Of a stretch of DNA of 64,000 nt, positions 1 to 3,887 are shown piece after piece (position 1 is the first letter of the stretch; every line of letters begins with the position of its first letter). This stretch comes from an archaeon. GTDB lineage: Archaea; Aenigmatarchaeota; Aenigmatarchaeia; QMZP01; JAFGSV01. Below the pieces are notes generated by a model. That model ran no database searches. It had not been told where the DNA came from and was given only the letters and a program-made list of their open reading frames with translations. The DNA lies in assembly GCA_028279705.1 (NCBI GenBank), contig JANQNF010000058.1, forward strand, positions 1-64,000. Direction: 5' to 3'. The position numbers were made by a program, and so were the translations under genes.

Positions 1-99
1 TTCATTTTTAATCCTTCATAAACGGCCTTAAAAAAGAATGTTTAAACATCTCTATTAACAAAAGCTAATTGCCAATTTTTGACATTCGGAACTACTGTA

Positions 100-305
100 G
101 ACCCACACCGTGGTTTCCTATGGACATTTTATTTTTTTGTTGAAAAATAAAAATCACTTATATTATTATATAACAATGTTATAAGGTTTGTTGTTGTTGT
201 TTTTCTTGTTTTCTTTGTCTCCACATGAAACGTTGGGGTGGGCGTCTCTACATGAAACCTGGAGTTCCTTTAACTAAAAAAAGTTCCAGTGGAAACAAAC
301 CTTTT
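100..305. promoter_or_regulatory. Putative replication origin (left ORB cluster plus AT-rich tract) upstream of orc1/cdc6
   Basis: ORB-like elements: gttccagtggaaacaaacc (283-301,+), tctccacatgaaacgttggggtggg (218-242,+), tctctacatgaaacctgg (246-262,+), and on the minus strand ATGTCCATAGGAAACCACGGTGTGGGTC (100-127). An AT-rich tract lies at about 127-215. Directly upstream of cdc6. Confidence 0.75.
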
Positions 306-346
306 TAAACTCCCGTGGGATATAATAATTCCCAACCGGTGTTTTC

Positions 347-1570
347 ATGTCACAGGTATCACTTAATAACATTTTCAATACATACACAAACGGTGTTAGC
401 GTTTTTCGTAATAAATCCTCCCTTTCTTGTGATTTCACACCAGACAACATTCCCCACAGGGGCAGCCAGATAGAAAACATCGCCCATATGCTTGCACCGG
501 TCCTTCGCGGTGAAAAACCGTCAAACGTTTTCATCTACGGAAAAACCGGTACAGGGAAAAGCCTGTGTATAAAGAAAGTTACGGACTCGCTTGAGGAGAG
601 CGCGGAGGAAAATGGAAGGAAGGTCAAGGTAATATATCTCAACTGTAAGATGGGAAAAGTCGCAGACACAGAGTACAGGCTGCTTGCACAGATACTCTCG
701 TTCTTCGGTGAGGACGTTCCATTCACCGGACTTCCAACCAACACGCTTTACAAGAAACTGTACGACAGGCTAGGAAAAACAGGAGGAAACGTCATACTGG
801 TACTCGATGAAATAGACGCCCTTCTCGAGAAAATAGGAGACGAGATACTTTACAATATAACGAGGATAAACCAGGACGTACCAAACATACAGATAACCAT
901 TGTAGGGATATCCAACAAACCCACGTTCATAGATACACTGGACCCTCGCATAAAATCCTCACTTTCCGAGGAAGAGATGGTGTTTCCCCCATATAACGCG
1001 ACCGAGATAAAGGACATTTTGGAGGAACGAGTAAAAACAGCCTTTAACGAAGGTACAGTCGATTACGGTGCAATAACAAAGTGTTCGGCTCTTGCTGCGC
1101 AGGAAAACGGCGATGCACGCAAGGCCCTTGATCTACTGAGGGTCGCTGCAGAGCTTTGTGAAAGGGCTTCGTGCAAGCAGGTCAATGAAACTTTTGTCAA
1201 CAAGGCACAGGAAAAACTGGACAAGGACAGGATAATGGAACTCATAAGGGCACAGCCAAAGCATTCAAAGCTTGTACTTCTTTCTATGTTGAGGCTTTAC
1301 AGGGACGGTAGTGGAGGCGTGCAGACTGGCGACGTTTATACCATGTATGAGAAGATGGCTGCCGAGAACGGGTTAAAGACGCTTACGCAGAGAAGGATTT
1401 CTGATCTCATTTCCGAACTTGACATGATGGGCGTAATCAACGCATCAGTCGTGTCAAAGGGCAGATATGGCAGGACGCGCACGATAAACATACAGCTTAA
1501 CGAGAACATAGTTTCCCTAATGTCAAAAACGTTAGGAAGAGAGTTCCCTGAAGCATTTATTAATTTTTGA
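347..1570 (+). CDS. cdc6: Orc1/Cdc6 replication initiator AAA+ ATPase
   Basis: Walker A GKTGTGKS, Walker B LVLDEIDAL, sensor region GISNKP, C-terminal winged-helix-like region; TATA-like tataataatt 20 bp upstream. Confidence 0.95.
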   Translation: MSQVSLNNIFNTYTNGVSVFRNKSSLSCDFTPDNIPHRGSQIENIAHMLAPVLRGEKPSNVFIYGKTGTGKSLCIKKVTDSLEESAEENGRKVKVIYLNCKMGKVADTEYRLLAQILSFFGEDVPFTGLPTNTLYKKLYDRLGKTGGNVILVLDEIDALLEKIGDEILYNITRINQDVPNIQITIVGISNKPTFIDTLDPRIKSSLSEEEMVFPPYNATEIKDILEERVKTAFNEGTVDYGAITKCSALAAQENGDARKALDLLRVAAELCERASCKQVNETFVNKAQEKLDKDRIMELIRAQPKHSKLVLLSMLRLYRDGSGGVQTGDVYTMYEKMAAENGLKTLTQRRISDLISELDMMGVINASVVSKGRYGRTRTINIQLNENIVSLMSKTLGREFPEAFINF

Positions 1571-3711: not shown

Positions 3712-3762
3712 GCGTTTTCTGCATGTTAACGTTTACTTTTACGAAAGTAACATGACGATGTT

Positions 3763-3887
3763 ACCCCTTCATTTCCACTGGAAACTTCTCTTATATGTCA
3801 AAAAACGGTATCATGGGGCATTATGTGAATAAATGGTGAATATATACCAATCAATCACCAGTGGACCCCCTTATTTCATGTGGAAAT
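3763..3887 (-). promoter_or_regulatory. Right ORB-like cluster (putative origin element)
   Basis: Minus strand GTTTCCAGTGGAAATGAAGGGGT (3763-3785) and ATTTCCACATGAAATAAGGGGGT (3865-3887), both close to the ORB form TTCCAGTGGAAACRAAGGGGT. Confidence 0.75.

Follow-up and report, generated by a model that had tools for sequence, protein, structure and literature searches.

A conserved palindrome at the midpoint of a probable cdc6-linked replication origin in Aenigmatarchaeota, and a candidate regulator that may bind it

As is established for origins of this type elsewhere, Orc1/Cdc6 bound to inverted ORBs brings about loading of MCM. The Orc1/Cdc6-linked oriC, exemplified by oriC1 of Sulfolobus, Pyrococcus and the haloarchaea, lies next to orc1/cdc6, has inverted ORBs with G-strings around an AT tract and, downstream of the gene, another group of ORBs (PMC4010727). 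The locus described here resembles these origins in all of these respects. Unlike them, however, it has a palindrome, TATAACANTGTTATA, in the very middle of the AT tract. In Sulfolobus, MCM is directed to the DUE by Orc1-1 bound at ORB2 and ORB3, and a motif called ucm, located midway between these two ORBs, is needed for firing and is bound by the protein UBP, which contacts the N-terminal domains of MCM (PMC12141716). The 2025 paper on ucm and UBP closes with the question of whether analogous proteins act at the origins of more divergent archaea (PMC12141716).

The analyzed window of 64 kb corresponds to a contig (C45), beginning at contig base 1, of a 1.9-Mb genome in 88 contigs (G000; other G numbers denote genomes compared with it). 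The closest named relatives of this genome are Candidatus Aenigmatarchaeota MAGs, and the compared genomes are mostly incomplete MAGs. With its 1.9 Mb, it is roughly double the size of the relatives in its genus (0.7-0.9 Mb). The window carries an orc1/cdc6 initiator gene (347-1570, plus strand; Pfam Cdc6_C and Cdc6_lid; NCBIfam TIGR02928 above the cut-off). Directly after it, at 1585-2487 on the plus strand, is a gene for a truncated relative of the PolD small subunit that corresponds to the N-terminal part of DP1 (NCBIfam NF003118, E 3e-14, residues 6-162 only and below the cut-off). The phosphoesterase domain is not recognizable in this DP1-like gene, which is syntenic in G001 and G002.

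No other 89-bp stretch of the window is as rich in AT as the tract at 127-215 upstream of cdc6 (83% AT), which is probably the duplex-unwinding element. Strict copies of the ORB core, TCCANNNGAAA, occur at 114-124 on the minus strand and at 220-230 and 285-295 on the plus strand, and are thus inverted around this tract. The first belongs to ORB L1, TGTCCATAGGAAACCACGGTGTGGGTC (100-127, minus strand), which is kept in G003, G001 and nearly all relatives that have the central dyad. The second belongs to ORB L2, TCTCCACATGAAACGTTGGGGTGGG (218-242, plus strand), which includes a G-string and is aligned and kept in G001, G003 and G004. ORB L3, TCTCTACATGAAACCTGG (245-262, plus strand), has a core at 247-257 with one mismatch and lacks a G-string; a similar element in the same place is found only in G004. 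ORB L4, TTCCAGTGGAAAC (283-297, plus strand), contains the third strict core and abuts the cdc6 core promoter, whose BRE/TATA sequence, AAACCTTTTTAAA (297-309, plus strand), is kept in all five aligned genomes. In G001, G003 and G004, this ORB persists at the same distance from the TATA box; in G002 it is degenerate. An earlier note on this DNA had reported these four ORB-like elements, and they are real, with the coordinates and orientations that it gave.

The earlier note had also observed that two copies share a variant core, which is correct (TCYACATGAAAC), and had taken this core to indicate a lineage-specific ORB. Variants of the central dinucleotide (CA, TA, GT and others) are, however, ordinary ORB variation, and the lineage-specific feature is instead the central palindrome, which the note overlooked. 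A further proposed ORB, CTCCCGTGGGA (310-320), has no GAAA, and the four closest relatives do not conserve it. The idea that the initiator might autoregulate cdc6 through this last element therefore fails for 310-320, but autoregulation by Orc1 is plausible through ORB L4, given its position near the TATA box. Since the conserved TATA/BRE lies directly 3′ of the ORB at 285-295, the latter would be the possible autoregulatory ORB.

According to pattern searches, on which all genome-wide motif counts in this work are based, the sequence TCCANNNGAAAY occurs 65 times in the 1.9-Mb genome, i.e., about once per 29 kb, and its reversed control occurs 25 times. Three strict cores within 184 bp, as seen upstream of cdc6, are expected about 0.001 times per genome. 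In the window, six of the ten strict cores fall into two clusters: the left cluster just described and a right-hand pair at 3757-3887. No further cluster of three strict cores was found in this genome besides the right cluster. The genome-wide check of ORB density that the earlier note had proposed thus comes out in favor of an origin: strict cores are rare and are clustered at cdc6.

The right-hand pair sits between a TctA-like gene and polB. ORB R1, GTTTCCAGTGGAAATGAAGGGGTAACATC (3757-3785, core 3772-3782, minus strand), and ORB R2, ATTTCCACATGAAATAAGGGGGTCCACTG (3859-3887, core 3874-3884, minus strand), are 102 bp apart and have full G-strings. R1 is found in the same place in G001 and G002, and both genomes keep R2 at a spacing of 100-102 bp. 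The pair belongs to the same conserved origin region as the left cluster, a point that the earlier note missed. In G002, the left ORB cluster and the dyad are lost and the right ORBs are kept; other genes lie upstream of its cdc6, and the proximal ORB has decayed, although the core promoter is still present. Judging from this loss, and from the absence of the exact composite of ORB and dyad in many families of the class, the dyad is not universally needed. As the right pair is the sole ORB cluster remaining near cdc6 in G002, the origin may have shifted or shrunk in that genome.

Inverted ORBs around an AT tract upstream of cdc6 are conserved in about 30 relatives, which range from the same genus to the class. 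In the genus and family of the analyzed genome, the conserved blocks are ORB L1, the dyad, ORB L2 and the ORB directly 5′ of the TATA box. The region thus lies beside orc1/cdc6, its inverted ORBs flank an AT-rich unwinding element, and these ORBs are clustered above the genome background and conserved in relatives. Given that the relatives keep this layout, the proposal of a cdc6-linked, ORB-containing and AT-rich origin is well supported, and this is very likely the cdc6-linked oriC of the chromosome. The active origin could instead lie elsewhere, with the locus being merely an autoregulated cdc6 promoter. In line with this idea, GC skew, another check proposed in the earlier note, gives no clear origin signal along the two single-contig relatives that we sampled (G034 and G002), and G002 retains cdc6 without the left ORBs; AT, third-position and GGGT skews along the same two genomes gave no clear signal either. 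However, an ORB pair and AT tract of fixed geometry recur across the order, and the analyzed genome has no other cluster of three strict cores besides the right one, which together make an origin elsewhere quite improbable. A second cdc6 gene (on contig C44) was considered as the site of another origin, but no ORB cluster is present there.

The main point of the locus is a palindrome that the earlier note missed. The dyad, TATAACAATGTTATA (169-183), is a 15-bp palindrome inside the AT tract and a putative operator of a cysteine-containing HTH regulator. Its center is 57 bp from that of ORB L1 and 49 bp from that of ORB L2. The dyad at oriC is the only copy with at most one mismatch in this genome, G001 and G003. 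Counts of the dyad and the regulator were made over 61 related genomes. The sequence TATAACANTGTTATA occurs in 44 of these 61, and a scrambled palindrome of the same composition in none, so we rejected the possibility that the dyad is a chance AT-rich palindrome.

Between inverted ORBs, TATAACANTGTTATA recurs across the order, and some scattered families of the class have it there too. A composite consisting of an ORB followed by the dyad at a distance of 30-52 bp was found in 36 of 158 genomes of the class (a search of the phylum covered the same 158) and its reversed control in none. These 36 genomes comprise 22 of the 41 in the order to which the analyzed genome belongs and 14 that belong to other, scattered families; the exact composite is absent from many families. 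In 22 of the 36, ORBs face the dyad from both sides. Across 23 origins, in which the ORBs are 89-115 bp apart, the position of the dyad, as a fraction of the inter-ORB distance, is 0.504 ± 0.046; as with ucm, a conserved motif thus occupies the middle between inverted ORBs. In loci L005-L011, which are from outside the class and are labeled Nanoarchaeota, Parvarchaeota, Woesearchaeota or unclassified archaeon, no match with at most three mismatches was found upstream of cdc6. What is new here, judged from the sequences, is the conserved 15-bp dyad at the midpoint of the origin AT tract. We found nothing in the open-access literature on this motif or on Aenigmatarchaeota origins.

Comparison of sequences suggests that a small regulator docks at the dyad. 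An HTH regulator of 100-125 residues that contains cysteines recurs beside the dyad and is present in 54 of the 61 genomes; the analyzed genome has a single copy (C80:86359-86661). In 22 of 28 cases, the regulator's own promoter carries, within 100 bp, a copy of the dyad that has two mismatches or fewer, compared with 0.36% of shuffles. We had spotted the regulator through one copy adjoining a dyad and then ran the promoter test on orthologues; this initial case does not count as independent. The promoter dyad is weak in the genus of the analyzed genome, with two or three mismatches. The exact dyad is missing in six of the seven genomes that lack the regulator (Fisher p = 0.0013, ignoring shared ancestry). 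Three sampled genomes of one family (f8; G043, G050 and G056) lack both the regulator and the exact dyad. In G020 (81% complete), the dyad is present and no regulator was found; G001 (91% complete) has a one-mismatch dyad and likewise no regulator was found. Separate proteins that are XRE-like regulators of about 240 residues are encoded near the origin in G001, of the same genus (L003:3294-4025), and in G055, of another family of the class (L067:670-1395).

In an alignment of 28 regulators, cysteine is invariant in one column and at least 90% conserved in another, while the regulators of G015, G032 and G035, among others, are missing some of these cysteines. The structure is predicted to be all-helical (pLDDT 85). 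In Pfam and NCBIfam searches, only HTH_3 scored above the cut-off, and no Rrf2, SufR, Fur or ParB domain was found. Searches of the PDB by sequence and by fold gave nothing significant, the best fold match having an E-value of 0.28. The regulator may resemble COG2522 or the N-terminal HTH of ThiR; our search of the open-access literature turned up no paper for COG2522.

Dyads also occur away from the origin. With origins included, 61 of the 67 distinct dyad sites that we examined are outside long ORFs. Genes downstream of other dyads in relatives encode SufS/IscS cysteine desulfurases, IscU/NifU, SufC, peroxiredoxins and a DUF1858 protein. Many non-origin dyads precede genes with no evident link to Fe-S. 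In G006 and G023 (L095, L096, L098 and L118), a common longer sequence, close to TATAACACTGTTATAcccgcacactgcg, follows several of the intergenic dyads, which suggests a dispersed repeat and not an operator. The largest number of dyad sites, 23, was observed in G015 (L088, L116 and L159), one of them upstream of CTP synthase. The regulator of G015 lacks the N-terminal cysteine and part of the CxxC, and its regulon may have been rewired.

These other sites bear on what the dyad does at the origin. The origin could be an ordinary ORB-type origin whose dyad is a plain operator for cdc6 or for the divergent gene, with no role in initiation. The same 15-mer is indeed an apparent promoter operator elsewhere, and the dyad is upstream of cdc6. 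However, it lies anywhere from 80 to 335 bp upstream of cdc6 starts in relatives, its distance is fixed to the ORBs and not to the gene or the TATA box, and it persists whichever gene is upstream; a plain operator is accordingly unlikely. Alternatively, the second Cdc6 paralog (encoded on C44 in the analyzed genome) might bind the dyad as a second initiator site, since the CANTG at the center of the dyad resembles the ORB center and several Orc1 proteins are in use in Sulfolobus (PMC12141716). This reading is very improbable in view of the genomes with a single cdc6 match that nonetheless keep the origin dyad (e.g., G042 and G049), the lack of an ORB cluster at the paralog gene itself and the presence of the dyad in the regulator's promoter. 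A 15-bp palindrome at an origin could also be a parS-like site for partition or a nucleoid protein, and the regulator's HTH gives weak, non-significant matches to ParB/Noc. There is usually one copy at the origin, though, with other copies at promoters, no ParB domain was found and the best fold match is that with E 0.28, so a parS-like site is very improbable.

We favor, with moderate confidence, the interpretation that the ORBs in 100-300 and 3757-3887 form an Orc1/Cdc6-type origin whose midpoint dyad binds the cysteine-containing HTH regulator, probably between MCM hexamers. The sequence, conservation and geometry of the dyad, and the operator sequence shared with the regulator's promoter, are observed; regulator binding, autoregulation, dimerization, contact with MCM and sensing we infer. 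Orc1/Cdc6 would bind the inverted ORBs L1 and L2 and direct the loading of MCM onto the intervening AT-rich tract. The regulator (about 100-125 residues, with conserved cysteines) would bind TATAACANTGTTATA at the midpoint of the tract and, in relatives, would control its own gene by way of this dyad. Most likely, it would act as a dimer between two facing MCM hexamers, as proposed for Sulfolobus UBP on ucm, where it might assist or gate MCM activation. The regulator may also report the redox or Fe-S state to initiation. It is possible, and we suggest this only tentatively, that a redox- or Fe-S-responsive regulator at the exact center of the origin gates initiation by the Fe-S/redox state of the cell, as a lineage-specific and independently evolved counterpart of UBP.

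The comparison with ucm and UBP is the closest. In both systems, a short motif in the DUE is conserved halfway between two inverted ORBs, and the binding protein, which is a candidate in our case, also has sites elsewhere in the genome. On the other hand, ucm has 11 bp versus the 15-bp palindrome here, and UBP is a basic, saddle-shaped protein of 111 residues with beta strands (PMC12141716) versus our all-helical HTH candidate. These descriptions set the two proteins apart, and the candidate does not appear to be UBP or a homologue of it. We infer that the regulator binds the center of oriC, as a positional analogue of the ucm/UBP system. The palindromic operators at Fe-S assembly and peroxide genes, the apparent autoregulation and the conserved cysteines are reminiscent of IscR, SufR and PerR/Fur, but the candidate has only an HTH_3-type HTH and no Rrf2, SufR or Fur domain. 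IHF and Fis at E. coli oriC are likewise sequence-specific regulators or nucleoid proteins with a defined origin site plus others, although these proteins are unrelated to the candidate regulator.

A DPANN lineage now offers an exact site, a geometry and a candidate protein, which makes the question of analogous origin proteins directly testable. The arrangement of an ORB, about 50 bp, the dyad, about 50 bp and an ORB also provides an origin signature for annotation of these genomes, in which GC skew is uninformative where sampled. If the candidate is right, archaeal origins have recruited sequence-specific regulators between two helicases more than once, and replication in these organisms is possibly linked to Fe-S metabolism.
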